Program-made: the position numbers and the translations under genes
Part shown: positions 1 through 28,687 of the stretch, piece by piece
Layout: every line of letters begins with the position of its first letter
How positions within the stretch are numbered: position 1 is the first letter of the stretch
The notes under the pieces: generated by a model
The model's input: only the letters and a program-made list of their open reading frames with translations
Databases searched by the model: none
Told to the model about the DNA's origin: nothing
IMG/VR virus record: IMGVR_UViG_3300036766_001158
Span: 1 to 37,050 of that record
DNA from: a virus
Direction: 5' to 3' (one strand)
Length of the DNA: 37,050 bases

Positions 1-127
1 GAAGGCTCTTTAGTAATGAATGTAACCAACACTTATTGGGATTTCCCAACTAGTGGGTCTTCGTTTGTTACTGCTGGGGGTGGCAATATCAACATTACTT
101 TTAGGGATGTATTTTTTGCCAGTTCGG
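1..127. repeat. Terminal direct repeat, left copy (circular contig overlap)
   Basis: Bases 1-127 are identical to 36924-37050. A repeat of exactly 127 bases at both contig ends matches a common maximum assembly k-mer, so this is most simply one circular sequence of 36,923 bp written with a 127-base overlap. It lies inside the tailspike coding sequence, which reads in frame across the join. Confidence 0.95.
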
Positions 128-2649
128 TTGGAAGGCAGACACAAGGAGGGACTGTTGTTTTTAACTTTCACAACTGTCAATTTGGTGGAGCAGCAATTTC
201 TTGCGTTAGAGGGGATTACTTTTTTTATAACTGTCAGTCTCCGTCACCTTCTGGATTTGTGGAAAATGACACTGTTGGAGCTCCTGGGAATTTTTACTTT
301 TATGATTGTCAGATCTTCGAAGCTACAGCATCTTCTACCGGAAATAGTAGCAACTGGTGGATAACACAATCGATCGGGCTACTTGATTTATCTGGAGGAA
401 ATACTTTCCGCACAAATGCTGTTTCGGATATATCTACACGCAGCACCATTATTAACGACACCGCCTTGAGTCCCTCTGCGGGTGACGGATTCCTTTATAT
501 TCCGTCATGTGCCGGGGCGCCTTCTGGGACTCCCACAACTTATGGGACAGGGGTTCCAATCGTTTTAGATTCAAGTGGTAGTGCTCTCTATTTTTATAAT
601 GGTAGTTGGCAGGCAGCACTTGCAGCGCCTACTCCTCCTGGGCAGTTATCCTATTTTGCTGACGCAGGTTCATCTCCGTCTGGATGGTTGAAATGTGACG
701 GTTCTGCTGTCTCTCAATCCGCTTATCCGGCTCTATATGCTCAGGTCGGCCTATTAAATACTCCACAAACTGTATGGACCAGTTCAGATATAGGAGGAAT
801 TTCAACTCCAGGTTCTTTTGCGTTCGGAGACTCTAAATTCGTAGTGGATATTGGCAATAATACTGCTGGGTTTTTAATGACTTCAACTGATGGTATTTCT
901 TGGACTGAAACATACAGCCCAGGACTCCTTCGTGTCATTTCGTTTCAAGACACGCTTTTCTTAGCTGGAGCAGCTAATGGATCTTTAAATACCTCTACAG
1001 ATGCTATTACATTTACTCGAAGAACATCGGGGACATCATCACTTATTTATCAATTTTCATTTGGAAATGGCCTGTACTCTTATATAGGGGAACGCGCTTA
1101 TGGGACCTCAACTGATGCGACCACATGGACTCTTAATTCACAGATGAGTCCTTACATGCCTTCTTTTTCTCCAGTTTCAGCTTTTTATTCTTCGAATTAT
1201 TACATTTCTACTAACGTAGCCAATTATACTTCGACTGATGCAGTGACATGGACAACAGCTGATCCATTTATAGGAGGCGCCGCCAATCAATTAGAGTTTC
1301 TTAATTCTTTATATTTAGGAGCCGGAGATTCAGGGGGAATTTTACAGACCTCAACGGATGGTGTAACTTGGACAATTAGAACGTCCGGAACAGCTTCTGC
1401 AATTGACTGTTTTACATTTGGAAATGGTATTTACATTTTTGGGACTGTTGGTGGAGGTTTATCAACATCCACAGATGCAATTACTTGGACATCTCAAACG
1501 TCTGGCACTTCAAGTAGTATTGGTGGATTAGCTTATGGAGCTGGATTAACCGAACAATATGTATATGTGGGAGCCGGAGGAGTGCTTCGCTCTTCAACAG
1601 ATGGTGTAACTTGGACATCTCGTACCTCTGGGACTATTAGCACACTCTCGGGTGTCGCATTTGGAACAGTTTATTTTTACGGAGGATTTGGTGGAGTGTT
1701 GCGAACATCTACTGACGGAATTACATGGGATTCGCAAACAAGTGGTACGACTCAAAATATTCAGAGAGTAATTTATGCAAATGGGACATATCTTTATGTT
1801 ACCCAGGCTGGAGGAACTTTGACATCAAGTGTTGTCGGATCTTCCACTGATGCGATTACTTGGTCTACCGTTTCTCTTGATCCAACTTCATTAAGGGGCA
1901 TAGCTTTTGGAAACTCTAACTATGTAGTTTGTGGCGGAACAGGGGCCGTTTATTCATCGACCGACCTAGTGACTTGGACGTTTAGCCCTGTATCACCAGT
2001 TTTGAATACTGCTAACGTCGTATATGGGTCTAATTTTTATCTAAATGCTAATCAAGATATTGGTAACCCAATTGGTGGTTCATATACTTCAACAGATGGG
2101 ACAGCTTGGGTTTTCTCAAATAGACAAAGTAGAGTTGGATGGGAAGAGGGGATAGGCTGGACTGGTCTAGTTAACGACGGGACTAATTTTATAGCATATG
2201 GCGAAGCGGGCTCTCTTTCAACTTCTACAGATTATGTCACTTGGATAAAACGTAATATAGGGACTGCAATGGACATTACTTCTGTTTATTACGGAGGAAG
2301 TTATGTAGCTTTTGCTGCCAAAACATCTGCATTAAGAAGCTACATGTTTGGGACCTCTTCAGACTATACCACCTGGGAATTAACAGAAGTAGTAAAAGAC
2401 AATTCCCTATCTGGTGTTGGATATAATTTTGGCAATTTGACATATGGAGCGGGGGTTTTTGTGTGTGGTTTGGGTGGCTCAGGAGGAGGGAATGCAAAGA
2501 TATTTACGACAAATTCTATTTACCCTTATGATACATCGACGTCATTTGCTCTCCCAAATGACTCCACCTCTGAGCTCACATTCAGTGGTTATGGAATAAC
2601 AAAAGAGCAGACAAGTGTCTTCAAGAGGAATCTGTACATAAAAACCTAA
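1..2649 (+). CDS. Tailspike/receptor-binding protein, C-terminal 882 codons (start at 36279 across the circle)
   Basis: This is the 3' part of a 1,097-residue protein that begins at 36279; the frame continues through the repeated ends. The N-terminal third (full-length residues about 40-400) is rich in short Gly, Asn, Ser and aromatic repeats, as in right-handed beta-helix spikes. At about residue 425 comes the start of a phage tail-collar domain (GWLKCDGSAVSQSAYPALYA). Then follow about 13 repeats of the form STDxxTW, typical of BNR/sortilin-like beta-propeller blades. The end (STSFALPN, then YIKT) looks like the second half of the collar domain, so the propeller seems inserted into the collar. 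The likely role is host-surface recognition, perhaps glycan binding or cleavage. It is followed 8 bp later by a glycosyltransferase. No catalytic residues could be assigned. Confidence 0.85.
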   Translation, partial: EGSLVMNVTNTYWDFPTSGSSFVTAGGGNINITFRDVFFASSVGRQTQGGTVVFNFHNCQFGGAAISCVRGDYFFYNCQSPSPSGFVENDTVGAPGNFYFYDCQIFEATASSTGNSSNWWITQSIGLLDLSGGNTFRTNAVSDISTRSTIINDTALSPSAGDGFLYIPSCAGAPSGTPTTYGTGVPIVLDSSGSALYFYNGSWQAALAAPTPPGQLSYFADAGSSPSGWLKCDGSAVSQSAYPALYAQVGLLNTPQTVWTSSDIGGISTPGSFAFGDSKFVVDIGNNTAGFLMTSTDGISWTETYSPGLLRVISFQDTLFLAGAANGSLNTSTDAITFTRRTSGTSSLIYQFSFGNGLYSYIGERAYGTSTDATTWTLNSQMSPYMPSFSPVSAFYSSNYYISTNVANYTSTDAVTWTTADPFIGGAANQLEFLNSLYLGAGDSGGILQTSTDGVTWTIRTSGTASAIDCFTFGNGIYIFGTVGGGLSTSTDAITWTSQTSGTSSSIGGLAYGAGLTEQYVYVGAGGVLRSSTDGVTWTSRTSGTISTLSGVAFGTVYFYGGFGGVLRTSTDGITWDSQTSGTTQNIQRVIYANGTYLYVTQAGGTLTSSVVGSSTDAITWSTVSLDPTSLRGIAFGNSNYVVCGGTGAVYSSTDLVTWTFSPVSPVLNTANVVYGSNFYLNANQDIGNPIGGSYTSTDGTAWVFSNRQSRVGWEEGIGWTGLVNDGTNFIAYGEAGSLSTSTDYVTWIKRNIGTAMDITSVYYGGSYVAFAAKTSALRSYMFGTSSDYTTWELTEVVKDNSLSGVGYNFGNLTYGAGVFVCGLGGSGGGNAKIFTTNSIYPYDTSTSFALPNDSTSELTFSGYGITKEQTSVFKRNLYIKT

Positions 2650-2657
2650 AGGACTGT

Positions 2658-3359
2658 ATGCCGAAAGTTTTCATCTGTACTCCAGCTTTCGAAGGAAAAG
2701 TTTATGCTCAATATACCATCGCACTTGCTGAAACGTTTCGTCTTTTGGGCGGTCATGGAATTGAATCTGTATTGAGAATAAGCGTTTCCGGATCTCTTCT
2801 ATGTGCTGAAAGAAACCGCCTTACCGAACAATTCATGCAAACTGACTGTACTCATATGCTGTGTATTGACAGTGATATAGGCTGGCCTCCACAAGCTGTC
2901 ATCGCTATGCTGCAAAGAGATAAAGACTTTATAGCAGGATGTTATCCAGCCAGGACTGAAAAAGTTTTTCTTTTCAGGCCCGTTTTTAATGAAGACAATT
3001 CGCTGAAAGTCAATGTAGAGCAAGGTTTGATTCGCATGACTCATGTACCCGCTGGGTTTATGCTAATAAAGAGAAAAGTCATTGAAAAAATGAGAGAAAA
3101 ATTTCCTGAACTTTATTTCGAACCTAAACATCCAGACAATCATACATCAAAAGGACATTGCCTTTTTCAGACAATGATCATGGATGGAGAGTTTTGGGGA
3201 GAGGATTATGTGTTTTGTCAAAGAGCGATTGAAGCTGGGTTTGAGATCTGGGTAGATCCTATGATTGAATTCGACCATGCTGGAAATAAAGGCGCCCTCT
3301 ATCAAACATTCACAGAAAACAAACCCGAAGCTATCGCTAAACAAGCTTGTCCAACATGA
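2658..3359 (+). CDS. Glycosyltransferase, GT-A fold, phage type
   Basis: This 233-residue protein carries a central HMLCIDSDIGWPP segment (about residues 66-78), whose Asp-rich DSD resembles the metal/nucleotide-sugar binding DXD of GT-A glycosyltransferases. A later GEDYVFCQRA motif resembles the downstream acidic motif of such enzymes. The start is supported by AAAGGA four bases upstream. It sits directly behind the tailspike gene, so it may glycosylate fibres or the host surface; the substrate is unknown. It overlaps the next mini-gene by ATGA. Confidence 0.75.
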   Translation: MPKVFICTPAFEGKVYAQYTIALAETFRLLGGHGIESVLRISVSGSLLCAERNRLTEQFMQTDCTHMLCIDSDIGWPPQAVIAMLQRDKDFIAGCYPARTEKVFLFRPVFNEDNSLKVNVEQGLIRMTHVPAGFMLIKRKVIEKMREKFPELYFEPKHPDNHTSKGHCLFQTMIMDGEFWGEDYVFCQRAIEAGFEIWVDPMIEFDHAGNKGALYQTFTENKPEAIAKQACPT

Positions 3360-3451
3360 GACATTGTGACTGTATCTTTCCTTCAGGCAGAGACAGATTT
3401 TGGGGCTTCCTTCACCTCATATGGCCCTGGCAATGGAGCTTTGATTATTAA
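3356..3451 (+). CDS. 31-residue Trp/aromatic-rich peptide, translationally coupled
   Basis: The ATG overlaps the glycosyltransferase stop as ATGA, the coupling style used throughout this genome. The peptide has a basic/Cys start (MRHCDCIFPSGRDR) and an aromatic hydrophobic tail (FWGFLHLIWPWQWSFDY) with four tryptophans. It is unrecognised; a membrane-active or lysis peptide is possible from composition and from its place at the end of the late block. The call rests on coupling and composition only. Confidence 0.4.
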   Translation: MRHCDCIFPSGRDRFWGFLHLIWPWQWSFDY

Positions 3452-3473
3452 CTAGCTAACAACGGAGATCGTT

Positions 3474-3611
3474 ATGTCTGTTATTCACCAAAAACCAAGA
3501 CACCACCATAGCGACTCTCCTCCGGAAACTAGGCAGCAAATAGTAGTGATGTTGATTTCCATCATGGCTCTGACAGTGTTGTTAGCTTGTCAGGTACTTG
3601 CTAATCGATAA
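3474..3611 (+). CDS. 45-residue single-span membrane protein
   Basis: The ORF starts MSVIHQKPRHHHSD, is basic and hydrophilic for about 22 residues, then has one hydrophobic span (VVMLISIMALTVLLACQVLA) to near the C-terminus. A GGAG lies about six bases before the ATG. It is the last rightward gene of the late block and overlaps the convergent replication gene by 11 bp. Size, topology and position suit a small holin-like or other lysis-accessory protein, but no family is recognised. Confidence 0.55.
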   Translation: MSVIHQKPRHHHSDSPPETRQQIVVMLISIMALTVLLACQVLANR

Positions 3612-4542
3612 GCTTTAACCCCATTTTTCTTAAGCAACCAGTCACTTGCTCCTCAAAGCCACCATCTCCAAACTTGATGTGGGGGCTATTGTTCGGACCA
3701 AAGTTAAACTCGATGTAGTTTTCAGCCACAGTTATGTCGCGATGCCCAGGAAAGGACTTTCCTATTCGTTTAGCGAACTCTCTATCTTTAGATGATCGGT
3801 CGCTCGCCTTAGGCTTGCTAAGGTCTTCTAGAACGGCTCCAATGACCCAATTTTGCATTGCCATGTAATCATTTCCTCCAGTGACTCCCTTTCCAATCTT
3901 CCATTTGGACAGTTTTTCGTAACAAGCTTTTCTCTTGGCCTCTTCTCCGTCACAATTTTTCAACAGAGCATCTTGTTGCTTCTTGGTTAAATGAACCTCT
4001 GGGGCAATTTCCTCTGAGGGTTCTTTTTCTTTTTTTCTCTTAGAAGGAAGAAAAGGAGAGCGCGCCGAAGGCATCGCTATATTTCCTTCTTCTTGGTAAT
4101 TCTTAGAACTTGGTAATTCTTTAGCGTCCTGGTTTTCCGTATCCTGGCGTTCCGTATCCGGATTTTCAGGAAGCGGATAGATACTTAAGGACTTACGTTT
4201 TTCTAAGTCTTGGGTGTTTTTGAATCTTCCGTCGCTTGAAACGGTGTATTTTACTCTCTTTAAGCCGTTTACATAAAATTCTTCTCTTAAAATATATCCG
4301 GCCTGGATTGCTTCGTTCAATATGGCATAGACTTGATCGCGGCCCATGAACTGTTTGCAATGATTGATAAGTTGTCTGGCCTTTATGCTCCACATTGGAG
4401 CGTTAGAAGAAAGGTAGATGATAAGCCAGCGGCAGTTGGGAGAAAGTTCCTGATTACGCAGCAATGCGTTTGGGACTATGCTGTAACCATTCTTAGATTC
4501 TTTGCTGTGATCAACTTCGAAATAAGCATCTTGTTCGCTCAT
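3601..4542 (-). CDS. Replication initiator-like protein with N-terminal winged helix
   Basis: This 313-residue leftward gene has an N-terminal domain (about residues 18-105) with the layout of phage/plasmid replication winged-helix proteins: YSIVPNALLRNQELS, a W-containing helix pair, then EAIQAGYILRE before a beta wing. The middle (about 115-185) is low-complexity, polar and Lys-rich. A C-terminal helical domain includes KKQQDALLKNC and DYMAMQNWVIGAVLED. This resembles lambda O/DnaD-type organisers that load host helicase. It is the only initiator candidate. Iterons were not found inside the gene, and the adjacent intergenic region has inverted repeats. The function is inferred from domain layout. 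Confidence 0.65.
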   Translation of the reverse strand: MSEQDAYFEVDHSKESKNGYSIVPNALLRNQELSPNCRWLIIYLSSNAPMWSIKARQLINHCKQFMGRDQVYAILNEAIQAGYILREEFYVNGLKRVKYTVSSDGRFKNTQDLEKRKSLSIYPLPENPDTERQDTENQDAKELPSSKNYQEEGNIAMPSARSPFLPSKRKKEKEPSEEIAPEVHLTKKQQDALLKNCDGEEAKRKACYEKLSKWKIGKGVTGGNDYMAMQNWVIGAVLEDLSKPKASDRSSKDREFAKRIGKSFPGHRDITVAENYIEFNFGPNNSPHIKFGDGGFEEQVTGCLRKMGLKLID

Positions 4543-5213: not shown

Positions 5214-5491
5214 TGGATCTTGTACTTTCGGCTCTTCTTTTAGTGGGGATCGTTTTAGTTCTTTATCGCTTGCACCTTATAGAATGCATGGTGGAAAAAG
5301 CAAATACTAATTCGATCCCACCTTTAATTGAGGAGGAATGCGCAAAAAAACCAGGGGCAAACAGAAGGCCAAGAACTGATGAGCAAAAAGAGTTAGCTTC
5401 TAGGCTTAGAAAAGAATGGTGGGCCAAAAAGAAGGCCTCGGACGAGCTTACGACTCCATCCGAGGCGGTAGAGAAACCTAAACAAAATTAA
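5213..5491 (+). CDS. Small membrane protein with cytoplasmic basic tail, 92 aa
   Basis: The ATG at 5213 overlaps the upstream stop. Residues about 3-18 form one hydrophobic span (LVLSALLLVGIVLVLY). The remainder is charged, with a basic segment KELASRLRKEWWAKKKASDE. An N-terminal anchor with a basic tail suggests an inner-membrane protein of unknown role. It overlaps the convergent RecT gene by 4 bp. Confidence 0.6.
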   Translation: MDLVLSALLLVGIVLVLYRLHLIECMVEKANTNSIPPLIEEECAKKPGANRRPRTDEQKELASRLRKEWWAKKKASDELTTPSEAVEKPKQN

Positions 5492-6273
5492 ACAGCGATC
5501 GCCTGTTGCTCTAGCCATTGGGAGAAGGATTTTTTAAACTTGGGTAATATTTCCTCTCTTAAGCATGCAGTCACGATCATTTCTGAAGGCTCTCCTTTAG
5601 CCGCGCATCGAAGAGATACCCACTCTTCTAGGCGCTCTGAAGAGATCCCTTCCTCTTTGAGGCGATTCTTTAGTTCTTCGAAATCCTTCCCGTAAACTTG
5701 GGGCTCTTGAATCGCTTCTTTTACAGAAGAAATCTTCTTTGATTGCTTAAATGCAACTGTATCCACAACAGGTTCGGCTCTGTCCATTTCTTCCGTAGAA
5801 TACAGATTAGCCGTTACAGCGGGGAACGCTTTGCGGATAGCGAGTGCCTCTGCACATTTAGCAATCATCAAATGAGGCTTGTCAGTCCAAAATGCTCCAC
5901 CATAAGATGGCTTATATTCATTGAAAAAAGCTGTGGCGCTCACTTCATGCCATACTCCATCAGGGGTTCTTTTTTTGACATACGCCGTTGAACACAGAAT
6001 GCCTCCTTCTTTATTGTACTGGTAAGAGGGTTCTTTCCCTGGGCTGTAGTTGCCTGTGCGCTCAGCGATAGATCGGAGACCATCGATCCCAACCTGTATA
6101 GTCATCGTGTCTTTTCTCTTCACTGCATAGATTTGCCGAGTCATTGGATCTAGACCTGTGTGTTTGCAAACATGTAGGAATAACTCAAGCTCGTCGTCAG
6201 TTGATCCTTTACAGAAAGTGCGCTTAATCAGCTCTTTTTTTTCATCGATTACTTCTGGTGTCGTTGTGCTCAT
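5488..6273 (-). CDS. recT: RecT-family single-strand annealing protein
   Basis: This 261-residue protein has the RecT layout: an N-terminal segment with ELELFLHVCKHTGLDPM, the core VGIDGLRSIAERTGNYSPG (about residues 77-95), an HEVSATAFFNEY strand region, and the helix MIAKCAEALAIRKAFP (about 137-152). RecT proteins bind single-stranded DNA and anneal complementary strands in phage recombination and replication. A PD-(D/E)XK nuclease in the same leftward block (6782-7345) is the expected exonuclease partner. A TAAGGT ribosome site precedes the ATG. Confidence 0.92.
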   Translation of the reverse strand: MSTTTPEVIDEKKELIKRTFCKGSTDDELELFLHVCKHTGLDPMTRQIYAVKRKDTMTIQVGIDGLRSIAERTGNYSPGKEPSYQYNKEGGILCSTAYVKKRTPDGVWHEVSATAFFNEYKPSYGGAFWTDKPHLMIAKCAEALAIRKAFPAVTANLYSTEEMDRAEPVVDTVAFKQSKKISSVKEAIQEPQVYGKDFEELKNRLKEEGISSERLEEWVSLRCAAKGEPSEMIVTACLREEILPKFKKSFSQWLEQQAIAV

Positions 6274-6781: not shown

Positions 6782-7345
6782 CTATGGATTAATAGCAACA
6801 TTTTCCCAGAATTCATAGACGGATTGCAAACATTTATCCAGTAAGGTAGCGTCAAGTTTATATTCGAACACTTTAGGCATTCCTCCGTATCTGTCCAACT
6901 TAACAAACAGGGATCTAGGAATGATCATTTTCGTGCTCTCACGAATAAGATAATGATAGAGGTGCGCTTGCATAGGCCATGTGATGGGATTTTCTTTAAC
7001 AGACGTTTTGAAATCGATCAAGACAGCTTCTTCTTCGCCCTTCAGTTTGGAAAGTGCATCGATGCTTCCTGTAAGCATTATACGATCGCAGTAGTACCTT
7101 TTTTCCGTTTCAAGGAATGTGGGTTGGACAGCAACTCTCCATTTATGGAAGCTCTGGAGATAGCCTGCCTCGTTGATATCAACCACGGGGAAGTTCCCCT
7201 TGATTTCTTGCTCGATTGCCTCGTGAATACGCGTGCCGAGCGCAGCCTTTCTATTAAGGACTTTTTCATCAATCCCTCCAAAGTTAGTGAAGGGCTTGAG
7301 GATATCTGACACTCTAGCGTATAATTTCCCGTTATGTTCCCACAT
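6782..7345 (-). CDS. PD-(D/E)XK (RecB/Cas4-like) nuclease
   Basis: The protein has 187 residues with the ordered motifs of the RecB/Cas4 nuclease family: LGTRIHEAIE with its His at residue 41, GSIDAL with Asp at 96, LIDFKTS with Asp 111 and Lys 113, then QAHLYHYL with Gln 126. These form the metal site and the Q-x-x-x-Y helix. Such nucleases pair with RecT-type annealases as 5'-3' exonucleases, in place of RecE or lambda exonuclease. It is the first gene of the leftward block, divergent from the Cro-like gene. An exonuclease role with recT is inferred. Confidence 0.85.
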   Translation of the reverse strand: MWEHNGKLYARVSDILKPFTNFGGIDEKVLNRKAALGTRIHEAIEQEIKGNFPVVDINEAGYLQSFHKWRVAVQPTFLETEKRYYCDRIMLTGSIDALSKLKGEEEAVLIDFKTSVKENPITWPMQAHLYHYLIRESTKMIIPRSLFVKLDRYGGMPKVFEYKLDATLLDKCLQSVYEFWENVAINP

Positions 7346-7352
7346 GCTGACG

Positions 7353-7416
7353 CTTCTTGTTGATAATAAATAGGGATGTTACTATGCTTTGCAGGTAAAT
7401 GTACACAACAAAGAAG
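7353..7416. promoter_or_regulatory. Divergent switch region with distant inverted repeats
   Basis: CTTCTTGTTG (7353-7362) and CAACAAAGAAG (7406-7416) are inverted copies, one base different in length, on either side of the divergent promoter region between the nuclease and Cro-like genes. They may be operator half-sites for one of the two DNA-binding proteins encoded immediately downstream. Confidence 0.4.
7357..7385 (+). promoter_or_regulatory. Promoter for the regulatory operon
   Basis: TTGTTG (7357-7362), an exact 17-base spacer and TACTAT (7380-7385) make a good sigma70-type promoter. Transcription would start near 7391, which excludes an upstream ATG at 7376 and supports translation from 7421. 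Confidence 0.6.
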
Positions 7417-7420
7417 GAAT

Positions 7421-7624
7421 ATGCTCCCTAGGGACTATCTAAACAAATACCGTCTAACGATTAAAGAATTTTCTGGTCGTGTAGGGATAACTCCAGCCTG
7501 TATGTGGCATTATTTGAGCGGCAGAAGAAAACCGTCGCAAAGAACGGCCGAAAAAATGGAAAAAGAAAGCGATGGGATTATTACTGTAATGGAAATGAGA
7601 GGTAAAGATGCTAGAACAAAATGA
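7421..7624 (+). CDS. Cro/YdaS-like helix-turn-helix regulator, 67 aa
   Basis: The start at 7421 follows AAGGA closely and lies downstream of the promoter; a frame from 7376 would start inside the -10 region. The protein has a compact HTH: LTIKEFSGRVGITPACMWHY then LSGRRKPSQRTAEKM, matching Cro/C1 and YdaS-type folds. It is transcribed away from the nuclease/recT block and overlaps the EUO-like gene by 17 bp. It is likely a repressor of the divergent promoters. Confidence 0.75.
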   Translation: MLPRDYLNKYRLTIKEFSGRVGITPACMWHYLSGRRKPSQRTAEKMEKESDGIITVMEMRGKDARTK

Positions 7625-8060
7625 TGAGATTTTCACTCTTGCTCAAGCCGCTGATTACGCGCACGTAGAAAGGCAGGCTATTTTTGTGGCAATAAGAGAC
7701 GGGAAGTTGATTGCGGAGAAAAGACCAAAGGGAGGTTTGTTGTGCTGGTTCGTAAAGCGTTCCGATTTGGATGCTTATCGGGCAAGCAAGTACATCAGAG
7801 ACAAAAGGATTGTGGACGGCCAAAAACTTTTTGATATAGAGAATGGGCGTCTTAGCGTATTTCACTTGTCTAAATTACTGACAAAAAAGCTAAAGAGACC
7901 GTATCCCACAGCTAGGATTTATCATCTTTTATATACGGGTGCCCTTCGCGCCTCAAAAAAAGCAAACGCATGGGTTATTTCGGCAGAAGACGCAGAAAAA
8001 CTCTATTTAAAAGAGAAAGCAGAACGTGAGGCTGAGTCGGGACTTGATCTGCTCGCGTGA
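7608..8060 (+). CDS. EUO-like two-domain DNA-binding regulator
   Basis: The 150-residue protein has two excisionase/MerR-type winged HTH units, residues 9-52 and 81-128. Motifs that recall chlamydial EUO in order and spacing are QAIFVAI (23-29), DLDAYRASKY (53-62), LFDIENG (74-80), GALRASKKANAWVI (111-124) and a charged C-terminal tail with EKAERE. In Chlamydia, EUO is a repressor of late genes active in reticulate bodies. A phage copy could hold the host in the replicative stage or control phage promoters. The similarity is judged from memory, not a search; a generic excisionase-type regulator is the alternative. GAGGT precedes the ATG. It is co-transcribed with the Cro-like gene. Confidence 0.7.
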   Translation: MLEQNDEIFTLAQAADYAHVERQAIFVAIRDGKLIAEKRPKGGLLCWFVKRSDLDAYRASKYIRDKRIVDGQKLFDIENGRLSVFHLSKLLTKKLKRPYPTARIYHLLYTGALRASKKANAWVISAEDAEKLYLKEKAEREAESGLDLLA

Positions 8061-8328
8061 GCTCGCCCGTTTCGCTATCCCATGTGTAAAGGGCGCAAAA
8101 CCTTAGAATCCATGCATCAAAAATGCTTTGCCTGTGCACAAACTCCATATGGCTCCATTCTAACGTTATGTATTCAGAGAGAACAGTATCATATCGAGAA
8201 CTTCGATCAATCAATCTGGTTCTAAAGACTTCCCTTATCCTATCGTATTCACTAATGATCTCTAGATCGTCTTCAAAATTTCTGTAGCAGAGAGCGAATC
8301 TCCTGTCCCAAACAACCACAGCAAGCAT
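7975..8328 (-). CDS. Hypothetical protein, 117 aa, antisense overlap with the EUO-like gene
   Basis: The leftward frame starts after GGGGA with five-base spacing and gives a protein with ordinary composition (WDRRFALCYRNFEDD near the start, TLEWSHMEFVHRQ in the middle, YTWDSETGELTR near the end). It overlaps the 3' end of the EUO-like gene by 86 bp on the opposite strand. No family is recognised. It fills an otherwise gene-free 370-bp stretch, which supports it being real. Confidence 0.5.
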   Translation of the reverse strand: MLAVVVWDRRFALCYRNFEDDLEIISEYDRIREVFRTRLIDRSSRYDTVLSEYITLEWSHMEFVHRQSIFDAWILRFCALYTWDSETGELTRADQVPTQPHVLLSLLNRVFLRLLPK

Positions 8329-8429: not shown

Positions 8430-8864
8430 ATGTACCTTTTTGAAGTAGCAGGCATCCCAGTTCCTCAAAAACAAACTCAATTCGTGAGAAAGACCGGCAT
8501 TGCTTATAACCCTTCGAAGAAGGACGCAGAACAGCTGCAATGGCAAATTCGTCCATATGCCCCAGAAACGCCACTTTCTTGCGCTATCGAGATGCACCTT
8601 ACGTTCTACCTTCCTATACCCAAGGCAACGTCAAGAATTAAGCGCATGCAAATGATGAATGGAATTATTCTGCCAAAAACGAAGCCAGATGTCGACAATC
8701 TCGCCTATTTGGTTACGAATGCGCTAAAAAAAATAGTTTATGATGATGACTCTTTAGTAACGGACTGTATCATCCGTAAGCGTTACAGCGACCGTCCAAG
8801 AACTGTGATTAAAATCATACCAATCGATGAGTTACAACGCGTAGGCGGCCAAGAATGCGTGTAA
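8430..8864 (+). CDS. rusA: RusA-family Holliday junction resolvase
   Basis: The 144-residue protein carries the RusA signature KPDVDNL (residues 85-91) followed by the helix TNALKKIVYDDDSLV with an acidic triplet at 105-107. These Asp residues form the metal-binding active site of the dimer. The N-terminal strand with IPVPQKQTQFVRK is also usual. RusA cuts four-way junctions, consistent with resolving recombination or replication intermediates before packaging and with RecT upstream. The gene overlaps the next by 10 bp. Confidence 0.9.
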   Translation: MYLFEVAGIPVPQKQTQFVRKTGIAYNPSKKDAEQLQWQIRPYAPETPLSCAIEMHLTFYLPIPKATSRIKRMQMMNGIILPKTKPDVDNLAYLVTNALKKIVYDDDSLVTDCIIRKRYSDRPRTVIKIIPIDELQRVGGQECV

Positions 8865-10910: not shown

Positions 10911-11720
10911 ATGAAAAAACTGATCTTTAGTCTATTAGCAACACTTTCAACGGCATTCGCAGCCGAAAGCCAAGTGGATCTTCGTATCGATACGAATCCA
11001 CGCGACCTGAACGCTAAATCTTCACTCAATGTATCAACCACAACGGCTGTCTATGTAGAGGAGTCCCACGCGATTCTTATGATGCCTGAAATGAGTTTTT
11101 ACACGAATGGGGGAATTGATTTCTCTGTTACAGGCGCTCACCGACACAGATGGAACAATTGGGTATGGGGCCACACTATGTTCTTTGATCGCACTTATGT
11201 AGATGGAAATTCACTCGATCAAATCGGCACAGGAATGGATCTGCAAACAGATCGCTTTGACTTTCGTGCCAATTATTACCATCCAGCCACACATTATGGG
11301 AATGCTGAATTTGTGGCTTCCAAATGGCTTGATGCTGAAATCTTCTTCAAAACAAAATACTTTGGCGTAGGAACGGGACCTCTCTACAATATTGATATGA
11401 AAGCATGGGCACTCCATAGCCGTATAGTGATACCCCTACGTAATTGCAGCTTAAATTTTGGTGGCATATGTGGATCAGGTGAGCTAGGACAAAGCCAAGC
11501 CGTCTTCTCAATCAGCTTTCATCTCTTTAAGCCTTCTAAAGCCAACAGGCTCATTTCACCTCCCTGTCACGTGCAGAAATCAAATATTTACTACAATTCT
11601 GCCTATTCATTTGAGGGAAAAGACGACACGCAAGTAGTGCTACAGTACAACCCAAATCTCGTCAGCTATATCGAGCAAACTGAGGATGAAGCTACACTTG
11701 GAGATAAAGAGGGCGAATAG
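10911..11720 (+). CDS. Inverse-autotransporter-like outer-membrane beta-barrel, 269 aa
   Basis: The N-terminus is a good signal peptide (MKKLIFSLLATLSTAFAA, cleavage near residue 17-18). The mature part shows amphipathic strands and the intimin/invasin-type inverse-autotransporter barrel signature: HTMFFDRTY (88-96), IGTGMDL (105-111) and RFDFRANYYHP (115-125). The predicted location is the outer membrane. At 269 residues it covers only part of, or a small version of, the usual barrel and carries no passenger domain. Such barrels are, from memory, frequent in environmental Chlamydiota. A phage copy could alter the host surface, exclude other phages or aid release. AAGGA precedes the ATG. It is flanked by a convergent gene and a bidirectional terminator. 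Confidence 0.65.
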   Translation: MKKLIFSLLATLSTAFAAESQVDLRIDTNPRDLNAKSSLNVSTTTAVYVEESHAILMMPEMSFYTNGGIDFSVTGAHRHRWNNWVWGHTMFFDRTYVDGNSLDQIGTGMDLQTDRFDFRANYYHPATHYGNAEFVASKWLDAEIFFKTKYFGVGTGPLYNIDMKAWALHSRIVIPLRNCSLNFGGICGSGELGQSQAVFSISFHLFKPSKANRLISPPCHVQKSNIYYNSAYSFEGKDDTQVVLQYNPNLVSYIEQTEDEATLGDKEGE

Positions 11721-13261: not shown

Positions 13262-13343
13262 ATGCCCTGTTTGTGGCAGCTTTCTCTATGAGCTTGAAGG
13301 TACGCTATATTGTGATGGCTGCTTGACAAGGCTAGGATTATGA
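13254..13343 (+). CDS. 29-residue zinc-ribbon peptide coupled to terL
   Basis: The ORF starts MNKCPVCGSF and ends YCDGCLTRLGL; two Cys pairs spaced as in a zinc ribbon make up nearly the whole peptide. It overlaps the upstream gene by 8 bp and its stop overlaps the terminase ATG as ATGA. It is probably real given the motif and the tight coupling. It may feed translation into terL. Confidence 0.55.
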   Translation: MNKCPVCGSFLYELEGTLYCDGCLTRLGL

Positions 13344-14848
13344 GCGTTGATCTAATTGGTCTTGAAAAGCACCTCTCTGATCAGTCTTGGCGTTTAAATA
13401 ATCTCTATACCATTGTGGACAAGGAAGGGAAGAATCGCATCTTCAAGTTCAATTGGGCACAGAGAAAGCTTTATGAAAAGATCTGGTACTCCAACATCGT
13501 CCTAAAGGCTCGTCAGCTCGGTATCTCCACCTTTGTTTGTCTTCTCTTCCTCGATAACTGTCTCTTCAAGCCAAATGTCGCTGCTGGGATCATTGCTCAT
13601 ACTAGAGAGGACGCAGAGCATATGTTCAAGCGAATTAAGTTCGCATATGATCAGCTGCCCGATTGCGTGAAGGATGTGAGGAGTGCAACCGTCTCTAGTG
13701 CGAGAGAGCTTGTTTTCAATAACAATTCTAGTCTCCGAGTAGGCACATCGATGCGAGGTAGCACACTGCAATATCTCCATATCAGTGAGTTTGGAAAGAT
13801 CTGTGCTCACTGGCCGGATAAGGCCAGAGAGATTGTGACAGGCTCCCTTAACGCTATTGGGAGCAAGCAATATGTCTTTATTGAGAGCACCGCTGAAGGT
13901 AAGGAAGGCTACTTCTATGATCTCTGCAAGGCTGCTGAGTCTGCTCAGATACAAGCCAAAAAGCTGTCTCCTCTCGATTATCGCTTCCATTTCTTCCCTT
14001 GGTATGATTGCCCTGATTACGCTCAGAACGAACGTATCACAATCCCTAAAGAGATTGAAGAATATTTTGATAAGCTCTATCAAGAAGATATTGAGCTAAC
14101 AGCTGAACAGAAGTCTTGGTATTATTCTAAGCTCCTCGTTCAGAAAGATGACATGAAGAGGGAATATCCTTCAACGCCATCTGAATCATTTGAAAGTGCG
14201 ATTGATGGGAGTTTTTATGCTAAGTGGATACGAGACGCTCGCTTTGAGGGTAGGGTGGGTTCGGTTCCTTGGGACAGGGAATCCCGTGTTAGTTTGGCAT
14301 TCGATCCAGGATATCTCGACTCATGTGCCGTTGTGTTCTTCCAATGTATCGGTCAAGAGATACACATTATCGACTACTATGAAAACTCAGGGGAAGGCCT
14401 TAGCCATTATCTCGAGGTCATCAAGAAGAAACCCTATATCTACGACAGATATTTCGGCCCGCACGATATCGAATCTCACCATTTTAGCACAGGCCTATCA
14501 ACCAAAGAAGTGGGTGCATCTCTCGGTGTCAATTTCATCACCCTTCAAACTCTCAAACTCAGACTTGAAGATGGTATTGAAGCTGTGCGAGGTCTCTTCC
14601 CACGCATTTGGATCGATGAGAAGCACTGCTCAAGACTCATAAAATGTATAGAGAACTATCGAAAAGAGTTTGACGTAAATTATCAAATTTACAAATCTAG
14701 ACCTGTGCACGATCAATTTTCTCATGGTGCAGATGCCCTAAGGTATGCCTGCATTGCCATCAAAACACATGTTGACAGTGCTAAAGGAGACATCTCAGAT
14801 GCAGAAGCAGACCGAATGTACAACAAGTACCATCCCCTCTTCAATTAA
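13340..14848 (+). CDS. terL: Terminase large subunit
   Basis: The protein has 502 residues. The ATPase Walker A variant KARQLGIST is at 56-64 and the Walker B region QYLHISEFGKI at about 144-154. The RNase H-like nuclease domain starts with FDPGYLDSC near residue 320, and the C-terminal HDQFSHGADALRYA near 456 is usual in this family. It pumps DNA into proheads and cuts concatemers. The start overlaps the preceding mini-gene stop (ATGA). It has normal length and no damage. Confidence 0.95.
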   Translation: MSVDLIGLEKHLSDQSWRLNNLYTIVDKEGKNRIFKFNWAQRKLYEKIWYSNIVLKARQLGISTFVCLLFLDNCLFKPNVAAGIIAHTREDAEHMFKRIKFAYDQLPDCVKDVRSATVSSARELVFNNNSSLRVGTSMRGSTLQYLHISEFGKICAHWPDKAREIVTGSLNAIGSKQYVFIESTAEGKEGYFYDLCKAAESAQIQAKKLSPLDYRFHFFPWYDCPDYAQNERITIPKEIEEYFDKLYQEDIELTAEQKSWYYSKLLVQKDDMKREYPSTPSESFESAIDGSFYAKWIRDARFEGRVGSVPWDRESRVSLAFDPGYLDSCAVVFFQCIGQEIHIIDYYENSGEGLSHYLEVIKKKPYIYDRYFGPHDIESHHFSTGLSTKEVGASLGVNFITLQTLKLRLEDGIEAVRGLFPRIWIDEKHCSRLIKCIENYRKEFDVNYQIYKSRPVHDQFSHGADALRYACIAIKTHVDSAKGDISDAEADRMYNKYHPLFN

Positions 14849-15273: not shown

Positions 15274-15536
15274 ACTCGGAGAACCGGAAAGCCATTCGTA
15301 CTTACATAGATGCATTCTGTGCAGCTCATAAAGAGGAGCCGCGTGATGGACGTATCATGATGGTTACTTCGTTCGCTGTGCCGTATGGTTTGTTGGGAGC
15401 TGATGAAAGGATTACCGTTGTGGAAGCTCTTCTAAAATTAATTGATTACATCAAAGAAGAAAAGTTTGAGGATGGGGATGACTTCATCCAATTTATGTTA
15501 GGATTTGCGAGCAACGAGGAATCAAATGGAAATTAG
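15270..15536 (+). CDS. Hypothetical protein, 88 aa, GTG start
   Basis: A GTGA overlap marks the start. The protein is mostly helical (RTYIDAFCAAHKEE, then TVVEALLKLIDYIKEEKFED) and acidic at its end. No family is recognised. It overlaps the GroES-like gene by 11 bp. Confidence 0.55.
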   Translation: MNSENRKAIRTYIDAFCAAHKEEPRDGRIMMVTSFAVPYGLLGADERITVVEALLKLIDYIKEEKFEDGDDFIQFMLGFASNEESNGN

Positions 15537-15780
15537 AGCATTTGGGGAAAGAACGCTGGCTAAACTTGTAGAGCTGCCAGAAAAGAAAAAAGGCATCTTG
15601 ATTACTCCAGAAGCCAAAAAAGAATATCAAGTGGCTCAGGTAATCGACAGCTCTGAACTTTCTGAAGGCATGTATGTCTTTACCAGAAAGTACGCTGGGC
15701 TCCTTATGGAGTACGACGGGATCGAGTATGTTTCGTTTGAGGCCAAAGAGATTTTGGCCTACAGCAAGGAACTGAAATGA
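15526..15780 (+). CDS. GroES-like co-chaperonin, 84 aa
   Basis: The start at 15526 follows GAGGA with good spacing. The sequence reads like a compact GroES: an N-terminal strand IRAFGERTLAKL, a mobile-loop region EKKKGILITPEAK (about residues 19-31), a strand VAQVIDSSELSEGMYV, and the GroES-type end KYAGLLMEYDGIEYVSF then AKEILAYSKE. GroES caps the GroEL ring, and phage versions such as T4 gp31 adapt host GroEL to fold the capsid protein. It is somewhat shorter than bacterial GroES. The identification is by motif reading. Confidence 0.72.
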   Translation: MEIRAFGERTLAKLVELPEKKKGILITPEAKKEYQVAQVIDSSELSEGMYVFTRKYAGLLMEYDGIEYVSFEAKEILAYSKELK

Positions 15781-17672: not shown

Positions 17673-19733
17673 ATGTCCAACCCCATGTCCAACTACTCTT
17701 CCGATGCTAAAGACTTTACCAACGAGTTCAAAAAGAAAGTAGTGTCCGATCCTAGGTTGGAGTTTCATCAAGACATCGTTCAAGACTTCGGGGAATCTTA
17801 TGAACGTGCCTATCAACTCTGGAATACCTTTTATGCTGAGGCATATAAAGATCTTTCCTATTACCTTGGCAACCAGTGGAGTCTTGAAGAACTATCTTAC
17901 CTCAACAACCAGCGACGCTCCTCTTTTACCTATAACAAGATCCGCCGACTCATCAACTTGGTACAGGGATACCAACGAAAGAACCGACTCTCTACTATTA
18001 TTAGCCCTATTGAAAACGCATCTGATCTCACAGCAGAGATTCAAACAGATGTCATGCAGTACATCATGCAGTCCTCTGACGGATATGAAACGATATCAGA
18101 GGCTTTTAAAGGGGCTCTCACTACTGGCATGTCGTTTGTATCACCATGGATTGACTATAGATCAGATCCCGTCTCGGGAGATATTAGGTTCCACCATGAT
18201 GCCTGGAATGCCGTTATTCTGGATCCATTCCTCACTAAAAAAGACCTCTCGGATTGCTCTTTCATTGCTAGGCGTAAGTTCTTGTCTAGAACAGAGGTAA
18301 TTTCTCTAATCCCTGATAAGCAAGATGTTATTGATCGATTACCTTGGGGGAGTAGGGATGATAAGTTCACTTATATGCCTTATGCGCGTCAGTGGGGCAT
18401 GCAGAAGCTTTTGAACTATACAGAATATTGGAGAACTCGTTGGGAAACCAAGAACGTTCTCGTTGATATGGAAACTGGCGAAACTCGTGAGTGGGATGGC
18501 GATAAAAAGCGCCTACATCTATTTAGACAGATGTTCCCTCAACTAGAAGTGGTGAAAAAGCCAGTTAGATCCGTTGAGTTAGGTATCATCGTCGAAGGGG
18601 AGTTGCTTTATTACGGCAAAGATCCTTTCGGCTTAAATGACTATCCATTCGTACCCTTCTTTGCAATATTTGAGCCTTCATACGATCTTTATACTTGGAA
18701 GATCCAGTCATTGGTACGCATAGTCAGAGATCCGCAGACAGAGCTAAACAAACGCCGTAGTAAGATGGTCGACATTATCGACAACCAATTGAATTCCGGA
18801 TGGATCGCTAAAACAAACTCAGTTTCGAACCCGTCTTCAATGTACAAGTCTGGGCAAGGGCAAGTAGTTTGGCTCAAGCCTGAAGCACAAATGACAGATG
18901 TTCAGCGTCTGCAAGCGCCAGAAATTCCCGCCTCTATGTTCCAACTCGAAAATGAGTTCGAGAAAGATATCATGGAAATCGCTGGAGTTAACTCCGAGCT
19001 CTTTGGTATGGCCGAGAATGATAAGGTCGAAACTGCTGCCACTTTGAGTAGGATGAGGCAGTCTGCTGGATTAATCAATCTACAAGATGTGCTTGATGGG
19101 CTGCGTGAATCTCAGAAACTCTTGGGCCGCAAAGTTCTGAAGATGATGCAGGTCAACTATACGCCAGAGAAGATCAAGATGATCACTAAGAAAGATCCTA
19201 CACCCGAGTTCTTCTCTAAGACTTTCGCTAAGTACGACGTGGTTGTCGAAGAAGGTATCCTAACTGACACACAACGTCAAAGCCAGTTCGTACAACTTAT
19301 GGCGCTCAAGGGAATGGGAGTTGAAATTCCAAATGCACTTATTATTAAGAATAGCAATCTACATGGGAAGAAAGATCTTGAAGAGCTTCTTGCTTCACAG
19401 GCTGAGCAAATGGCTAAGCAAGAACAGATGGCTGCGCAGCTTCAGATGCAAAATCAAGCAACTGTCACGAAGGCCGTCGAAGCAAAAGCTGAGTCAGATA
19501 GATCTCTCGCTGCAGAACGGCTTAACAAGGTTGGATTAGATGCTGCTCTTAGTGCGGAAAGGATCTCCAGAGCCGAAGAAGAAAGAACTGCTGGCGCTCT
19601 CAACTTGATTAAGGCATTGAAAGAACTCGATTCTATGGACTTAGACAATCTCACCAAGAAGTTAGCGCTTATTCGCGAGCTTGAGGGCAAGAATCAACGC
19701 GGCAACGAACAACAACCAGCAGCTGTTGCTTAA
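17673..19733 (+). CDS. Portal protein, P22-like
   Basis: The protein has 686 residues, typical for P22-type portals. It has the usual N-terminal NKIRRLINLVQGYQRKNRLS region, the core FIARRKFLSRTEV and the EIAGVNSELFGM segment (about residue 430-445) that precedes the tunnel helices, and ends in a long Gln/Ala/Glu-rich coiled coil (about 580-680). The dodecameric portal is the DNA gate and terminase docking site. AAGGA precedes the ATG. It is followed by a non-coding gap of 177 bp. Confidence 0.9.
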   Translation: MSNPMSNYSSDAKDFTNEFKKKVVSDPRLEFHQDIVQDFGESYERAYQLWNTFYAEAYKDLSYYLGNQWSLEELSYLNNQRRSSFTYNKIRRLINLVQGYQRKNRLSTIISPIENASDLTAEIQTDVMQYIMQSSDGYETISEAFKGALTTGMSFVSPWIDYRSDPVSGDIRFHHDAWNAVILDPFLTKKDLSDCSFIARRKFLSRTEVISLIPDKQDVIDRLPWGSRDDKFTYMPYARQWGMQKLLNYTEYWRTRWETKNVLVDMETGETREWDGDKKRLHLFRQMFPQLEVVKKPVRSVELGIIVEGELLYYGKDPFGLNDYPFVPFFAIFEPSYDLYTWKIQSLVRIVRDPQTELNKRRSKMVDIIDNQLNSGWIAKTNSVSNPSSMYKSGQGQVVWLKPEAQMTDVQRLQAPEIPASMFQLENEFEKDIMEIAGVNSELFGMAENDKVETAATLSRMRQSAGLINLQDVLDGLRESQKLLGRKVLKMMQVNYTPEKIKMITKKDPTPEFFSKTFAKYDVVVEEGILTDTQRQSQFVQLMALKGMGVEIPNALIIKNSNLHGKKDLEELLASQAEQMAKQEQMAAQLQMQNQATVTKAVEAKAESDRSLAAERLNKVGLDAALSAERISRAEEERTAGALNLIKALKELDSMDLDNLTKKLALIRELEGKNQRGNEQQPAAVA

Positions 19734-27795: not shown

Positions 27796-28238
27796 CATCA
27801 CAGTTTAATCCTTTCCTTCAGGGAACTGTGCCTATATCGACCATTATTCCGACTAATGAAGATCTTTTTGTCCCTTATTTTACCAGAACGTACGAGGACT
27901 TGGCCACAGCCATTAACAACAAAGATAATATTTACTTCCAGATCCCCATTAAGAGCACCGCGGCTAATATACCAAACCTACCAAACTTCGGGGCGTTTAT
28001 AGTTTGTGTTAGTGGGTCGGATAGCACGTTGCCAACAATAACGGCGAGTTTGTGTAAGTCATCTTCATCTGTAGCCGGATCTGTAGCCCAGTTAGGTTTC
28101 CAGGCCGGGACAGCTACGTGGGCCGGAAAAGTTTTGACTATTACATCAACAGCCTCTAGTTTTCAGATAGCCCATAACAATACAGGGGTTACCGGTAATT
28201 TCAATATCAAAATAATAGGAACGCAAGGAGCAACATGA
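27792..28238 (+). CDS. Virion protein, 148 aa
   Basis: An ATGA overlap links it to the hub gene. The first part (FNPFLQGTVPISTIIPTNED) is extended; the remainder is beta-rich and Ser/Thr/Gly-rich. Its place between the hub and the acetyltransferase suggests a minor tail protein. It is unrecognised. Confidence 0.55.
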   Translation: MTSQFNPFLQGTVPISTIIPTNEDLFVPYFTRTYEDLATAINNKDNIYFQIPIKSTAANIPNLPNFGAFIVCVSGSDSTLPTITASLCKSSSSVAGSVAQLGFQAGTATWAGKVLTITSTASSFQIAHNNTGVTGNFNIKIIGTQGAT

Positions 28239-28687
28239 CTACCGCAGCGACTGAACCAAAAAGCAGCACGGCAACTATTCCTAAGTTAGAATTCGTGCGC
28301 CTTAAAATACCGCGGTTGATCCCTAAGGAATTGATCGAGGCAGTAAAGGGAAGAACCTTTACTCCAGATCAGTTTATTACATACCAAGAGAGACAGGTGG
28401 ATAGTCCGGGAAACTTTCTTTATGCCCTTATCGACAAGGATAAAAAGATCCAGGGGTATCTTTGGGCAGAACTTAATGGCCTAGACGGCACATTATTTGT
28501 GAACACATTCTCTATATCCAAAGAATACTGGGGAAAAGGATTAGGCATAAAAAAGGCCATTGAGTTCTTGTCTACCTTAAAGGAAAAGACAAAGGCCCCT
28601 AGAGTCTACTGGTGCACCACGAACGAGAAGTTTTTTGCAAAAAATGGATTTAAGCGTTCCAAAATCTCTCTCATGGAATATAATTAA
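28235..28687 (+). CDS. GNAT-family acetyltransferase
   Basis: The 150-residue protein has the GNAT core: LYALIDKDKKIQGYLWAEL (beta strands 3-4), then FSISKEYWGKGLGIKKAIEF, where the G-K-G-x-G loop binds acetyl-CoA, and a C-terminal WCTTNEKFFAKNGFKRSK. Acetyltransferases of this type occur in virion gene clusters of related phages and may modify phage or host proteins; the substrate is unknown. It is coupled to the gene before by ATGA. Confidence 0.8.
   Translation: MTTAATEPKSSTATIPKLEFVRLKIPRLIPKELIEAVKGRTFTPDQFITYQERQVDSPGNFLYALIDKDKKIQGYLWAELNGLDGTLFVNTFSISKEYWGKGLGIKKAIEFLSTLKEKTKAPRVYWCTTNEKFFAKNGFKRSKISLMEYN

Follow-up and report, generated by a model that had tools for sequence, protein, structure and literature searches.

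Does a tailed phage carry its own copy of Euo, the protein that acts as master switch of the life cycle in chlamydiae, and if so, which promoters does the phage protein serve? The question was raised by an initial annotation of a 37,050-base tailed-phage contig (the window, i.e. the whole stretch of DNA analysed; GC 43%), in which one gene product was said to resemble Euo along its whole length. The window carries a 127-base repeat at both ends, which suggests that the phage genome is probably circular. Euo has been described as the sole conserved transcription factor unique to Chlamydiae (PMC4989314), and it belongs to the chlamydial core genome, being present in 99% of genomes (PMC8242063). 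No description of a phage Euo or of an isolated tailed phage of Chlamydiota was found in the open-licence articles searched, and the annotator likewise knew of no described tailed phage with such a gene. The gene and the parts of its product are as follows.

7608..8060, plus strand: EUO-like gene, ATG start, 150 amino acids, tandem wHTH
7629..7787, plus strand: wHTH domain 1 (aa 8-60), excisionase/BldC type, Pfam HTH_17; the recognition helix retains RQAI-VAI
7716..7757, plus strand: enlarged wing of domain 1 (aa 37-50); the equivalent of Waddlia Euo R47 is not Arg
7848..8054, plus strand: wHTH domain 2 (aa 81-149), MerR/RacA-like, with a long C-terminal helix; the Tyr equivalent to Y100 is retained

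The 3' end of the gene is overlapped by an ORF of 117 amino acids on the opposite strand (7975-8328, minus), which may be a real gene or a chance occurrence.

The first comparison was made with a provisional Euo sequence and served as a lead only; all later comparisons were made with Euo proteins translated from genome DNA. The stretches QAIFVAI (aa 23-29), DLDAYRASKY (aa 53-62), LFDIENG (aa 74-80) and GALRASKKANAWVI (aa 111-124) of the phage protein aligned, in this order, with QAIYVAI, DLEDYRRNRY, LFDNEKG and GAMKGERRGSAWVI of a chlamydial Euo (L187). The order was thus as originally claimed, but the spacing, which had been called similar, departed from that of Euo at two places: the phage group has an extended wing in domain 1, and 6 residues are inserted ahead of the second recognition helix. 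When a profile of the phage proteins was compared with a Euo profile, the match had a probability of 100% and an E-value of 1.2e-39 over 127 columns, and the homology extended over the full length, comprising both wHTH domains and the linker. This confirmed the claimed whole-length resemblance. Judged by sequence, the match is far beyond chance, and the assignment of the window protein as a full-length relative of the Euo family is firm.

Structure prediction gave a concordant picture. The AlphaFold2 model of the window protein (pLDDT 91.5) consisted of two winged helices in tandem, the tandem TorI/Xis-like wHTH fold predicted for the Euo family, and a model of a chlamydial Euo (from G040, a genome which we take to be C. 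trachomatis) had the same order of elements. In structure comparison domain 1 matched BldC and mycobacteriophage Xis with a VIA Z of about 8. A search of solved structures by sequence yielded no convincing relative of the window protein. The initial annotation had named generic excisionase or MerR proteins without a Euo-like second domain as the best matches that would speak against it; the profile and structure searches did not have this outcome.

Specificity was tested by searching genome, plasmid and phage collections with the window protein. Matches were obtained in 211 of the 234 Chlamydiota genomes (E<=1e-3), most of which gave a single match, and in 0 of 398 Pseudomonadota genomes, a negative control centred on the E. 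coli type strain. PLSDB plasmids (72,556) gave no match at E<=1, and the INPHARED phage records (50,697) gave just one HTH match of 58 residues (E 0.8). Euo of Chlamydia sp. 17-3921, whose gene adjoins gltX, matched the window protein with E 6e-20; this locus was the only one returned by a scan of 84,980 species genomes, the reach of which was limited by search patterns that the provisional Euo sequence had helped to shape. Pfam places both the phage protein and Euo only in the broad HTH_17 family, as would be expected also if the phage protein were an unrelated tandem HTH_17 protein whose likeness to Euo arose from convergence or low complexity. Such an origin is scarcely credible, because the alignment runs from end to end through both domains and the linker motif, at the E-value of the profile comparison, and because none of the Pseudomonadota genomes matched despite the wide distribution of HTH_17 domains (found in 11 of 14 control genomes). 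The convergence reading was regarded as refuted by this specificity control.

The gene lies in what appears to be the early control region of the phage. The relevant neighbours, and the structural genes used as queries or markers, are listed below.

5488..6273, minus strand: RecT-like single-strand annealing protein
6782..7345, minus strand: PD-(D/E)XK exonuclease, conserved left neighbour
7346..7420, no strand: divergent control region between the exonuclease (minus) and Cro-like/EUO-like (plus) genes, promoter TTGATA-N17-TATGCT at 7360-7388
7421..7624 (alternative start 7376), plus strand: Cro-like HTH gene, first of the operon; HTH_3 match, E 1e-3, below the Pfam cut-off
8430..8864, plus strand: RusA Holliday-junction resolvase, conserved right neighbour
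13340..14848, plus strand: terminase large subunit, the query for related phages and chlamydial prophages
17673..19733, plus strand: portal protein, 77% identical in the Chlamydiota-binned contig L123
21743..22690, plus strand: major capsid protein, the phage-group marker

The gene had been reported to be paired with a Cro-like gene behind a clear promoter. The Cro-like gene was recovered: its ORF overlaps the start of the EUO-like gene by 17 nt, and copies 33-58% identical to it were detected in most related early regions, the exceptions being L210 and L123. The promoter was less clear in the window, where 7 promoter-type sites were found against 5.5 +/- 2.6 expected, weak evidence by itself; across ten phages, however, the summed score of the promoter at this position exceeded that of all 500 shuffle sets.

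Some other genes of the window were noted in passing. The ORF at 16-2649 (plus) encodes a tail collar/fibre protein in which TSTDG(V/I)TW-like repeats are numerous, and had no match in the related phage loci compared. The product of 10911-11720 (plus) probably carries a signal peptide, judged by eye, and partly matches the inverse-autotransporter beta-barrel family IAT_beta (E 4e-7); it gave weak matches in 10 of 234 Chlamydiota genomes and none in the related phage loci compared, and possibly alters the host surface. A Cpn10/GroES-like protein (15505-15780, plus; E 4e-6), found also in several related phages and in L378, with a similar one in L377 (by eye), could be the phage's own co-chaperonin for capsid folding. 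A GNAT acetyltransferase-like protein is encoded in the structural region (28235-28687, plus) and is 71-79% identical across related phages.

The occurrence of the gene was then followed through related phages. A search with the terminase identified 11 close phage records, 8 of which have an EUO-like gene. The other three (G002, G003 and G007) also lack the exonuclease and RusA genes; they may be fragments, and their lack of the gene was not taken as an absence. Every record that spans the early region has the order exonuclease (minus), Cro-like (plus), EUO-like (plus) and RusA (plus), apart from the two loci without a detected Cro-like gene. The capsid protein marks a larger phage group of at least 104 records. 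Of the 37 long related records, 36 were picked by the capsid protein, and RusA served to pick L248; a Euo-family gene was present in 24, in most cases flanked by a divergent exonuclease gene and RusA and accompanied by a Cro/XRE-type gene, so that it is not peculiar to a single contig. Ten long records without a match were searched again with a broader model and none contained a Euo-family gene, so the gene is not essential to all these phages; L364, for example, has kept the series of exonuclease, Cro-like and RusA genes, but no Euo-like gene lies within it. In the control module the Euo-like gene is therefore frequent but dispensable. It also diverges rapidly: identity to the window copy was 34-50%, as against 89-96% for the capsid protein in the same records.

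A second lineage (L377 and L378, whose Euo-like proteins are L348 and L349) has an XRE gene followed by the Euo-like gene; a tyrosine recombinase, a ParA-like ATPase and a Cpn10-like protein are encoded close by. Tyrosine recombinase and ParA-like ATPase gene types are also core in chlamydial plasmids, and chlamydial plasmids with phage genes are known (PMC7846284); L377 and L378 could be phage-plasmids. The relatives described here were found by profile, terminase and capsid scans. When viral contigs were scanned with the window protein as a single sequence, nothing was found, the patterns being too strict. A scan of these contigs with host-Euo patterns was empty as well, and since host-like phage copies exist, an empty pattern scan cannot be read as absence.

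The host is very probably a bacterium of the Chlamydiota. This assignment, made from sequence relationships, is well supported by several observations. Outside phages the Euo family was found, in the genome searches, in Chlamydiota. The contig L123 (G050:C232), 14.7 kb long and part of a Chlamydiota genome, carries the same gene block, with 43-46% identity in the EUO-like protein and 77% in the portal protein, although this contig could be mis-binned. Terminases 46-54% identical to that of the window occur in about a dozen Chlamydiota genomes, two of them on chromosome-size contigs, and capsid relatives 43-49% identical in two other Chlamydiota genomes. The phage-type Euo gene was not found in the Chlamydiota genomes with related terminases. 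Some environmental chlamydiae have CRISPR arrays (PMC8242063). One chromosomal locus with TerS and TerL relatives (L171, G250:C1:718000-737500; TerL 53%) has tyrosine-recombinase-like and DnaB-like genes (by eye) and no recognised capsid genes; it is a prophage remnant or a satellite.

Phylogeny had been proposed as a check of whether the protein nests in Chlamydiota. In a tree of 29 phage and 48 host proteins, L345, L346, L348, L349 and L352 grouped with host Euo and the other 24 phage proteins stood apart (100/95). The same split was obtained without the longest branches (95/97), with four host-like phage proteins inside the host set. These trees have strongly unequal rates and no outgroup, and a single phage clade was not rejected (AU p 0.39). 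The window group thus lies outside chromosomal Euo on a separate deep phage branch; the expected nesting does not apply to the window protein, whereas a second phage group does join host Euo. An earlier suggestion that all phage copies form one separate clade, drawn from a first tree of 10 phage and 69 host proteins, was dropped after 19 phage copies had been added. Transfer of Euo may have proceeded from host to phage or from phage to host. A reading in which present-day phages carry competing Euo versions able to act on the host's cycle is tentative, and we incline against it.

DNA-contact residues were compared next. Triple mutation of Y31, R47 and Y100 impairs binding by Waddlia Euo (PMC4989314). 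In the alignment these columns were Y in 60/60, R in 58/60 and Y in 60/60 host proteins, and F in 7/10, R in 1/10 and Y in 9/10 phage proteins. In the window protein two of the three tested residues are changed, Y31 being replaced by F and R47 being lost in the enlarged wing. Locus L227 has Y, R and Y exactly at Waddlia positions 31, 47 and 100, which supports its identity as Waddlia Euo. Several Chlamydiota genomes (L096, L098, L099, L100, L107, L115, L120, L194) contain two adjacent Euo genes, one of them more diverged.

Taken together, we consider it probable (about 0.62) that the phage-borne Euo-family protein is an early transcription regulator with the phage's own promoters as its main target. 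The EUO-like gene is the second gene of a rightward operon, probably translationally coupled to the Cro-like repressor gene that it overlaps, behind a conserved sigma-70-type promoter facing the leftward recombination genes. The protein would be made early in infection and would bind repeated sites at phage promoters, its own divergent promoter first. Together with the Cro-like protein it may time the switch from early recombination and replication genes to late genes, by analogy with Euo, which times mid and late genes in the bacterium. This role is favoured because the copies diverge much faster than the capsid protein, as regulators co-evolving with their own operators would, and phage targets are favoured because DNA-contact residues have changed. 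Pairing with an XRE/Cro-type gene recurs in the second lineage. Contact with some host Euo promoters is possible, since the protein belongs to the same family; queF and ftsY are among the host targets of Euo. The suggestion that the phage reuses Euo operators in its genome found no support: minimal Euo boxes were not enriched in the window control region, and the 15-bp Waddlia consensus occurred in the phage genome at chance level (7 versus 4.6 +/- 1.9); short, AT-rich boxes such as those published for Euo (PMC4989314) leave these scans with little power. Sites common to the two control regions were absent except in L209. As no operator was found, we infer regulation of phage genes from gene position and divergence only.

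Alternatively, the phage protein might occupy host Euo sites, repress late genes and hold the host in the dividing reticulate-body form for as long as the phage is multiplying. In favour of this reading, Euo of C. trachomatis is a repressor of late genes and an activator of mid genes (PMC10653925), and in Waddlia its targets number more than 100 promoters (PMC4989314). The RQAI-VAI recognition helix and Y100 are retained, and a group of phage copies without the wing insert shares 50-52% identity with host Euo. We nevertheless think it unlikely for the window protein: in its group the Y31 and R47 equivalents are changed and the wing is enlarged, and the fast divergence of the phage copies is less in keeping with a faithful mimic than with a phage-own regulator. 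The case for host mimicry is better for the host-like copies than for that of the window. Less probable by far is an excisionase or recombination directionality factor whose tandem wHTH domains bend DNA at attachment sites. Each domain does resemble Xis/BldC-type wHTH proteins, Euo itself has been compared with TorI (PMC4989314), and the L377 and L378 phages have a tyrosine recombinase. No integrase, however, was recognised among the window proteins scanned, the neighbour of the gene in the early control region is a Cro-like gene rather than an integrase, and the full-length match seen with Euo is not obtained with single-domain Xis proteins.

The occurrence of a Euo family in tailed phages has several uses. 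It provides a genetic marker that ties otherwise host-less environmental phages to Chlamydiota, the phage copies are natural Euo variants with altered DNA-binding residues, and through them ideas on how the chlamydial developmental switch originated can be put to the test.

Among known systems, lambda-type early control regions likewise have a divergent promoter between recombination genes and a Cro-like gene; unlike in these, the second gene in the window encodes a Euo-family protein, and no CI-like repressor was recognised. The top Foldseek rows were TraN of Enterococcus, a double-stranded-DNA-binding conjugation protein (4pm3), which covered most of the length weakly (E 0.008, TM about 0.3) and for which a sequence relation to the phage protein was not found. 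TorI, Xis and BldC (mycobacteriophage Pukovnik Xis, 4j2n; BldC, 6ama/6amk) have a single wHTH with the same fold as each domain of the phage protein, but consist of one domain, without the Euo linker or second domain; Euo itself was predicted to have TorI/Xis-like wHTH domains (PMC4989314). With Euo (C. trachomatis; Waddlia chondrophila, PMC4989314) the phage protein shares the tandem wHTH, the linker motif G..LFD...G..S, the order of elements and Y100. The window copy is about 30-38% identical to Euo, while the phage copies L345, L348 and L349 reach 50-52%. Unlike Euo, the phage protein has an enlarged wing, the 6-residue insert and a short N-terminal tail, and its gene lies between Cro-like and RusA genes, whereas the Euo gene of Chlamydia stands on the chromosome beside gltX. 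The phage gene is a member of the Euo family, not the host orthologue, and represents a phage-borne variant of a family previously described from chlamydial chromosomes only.
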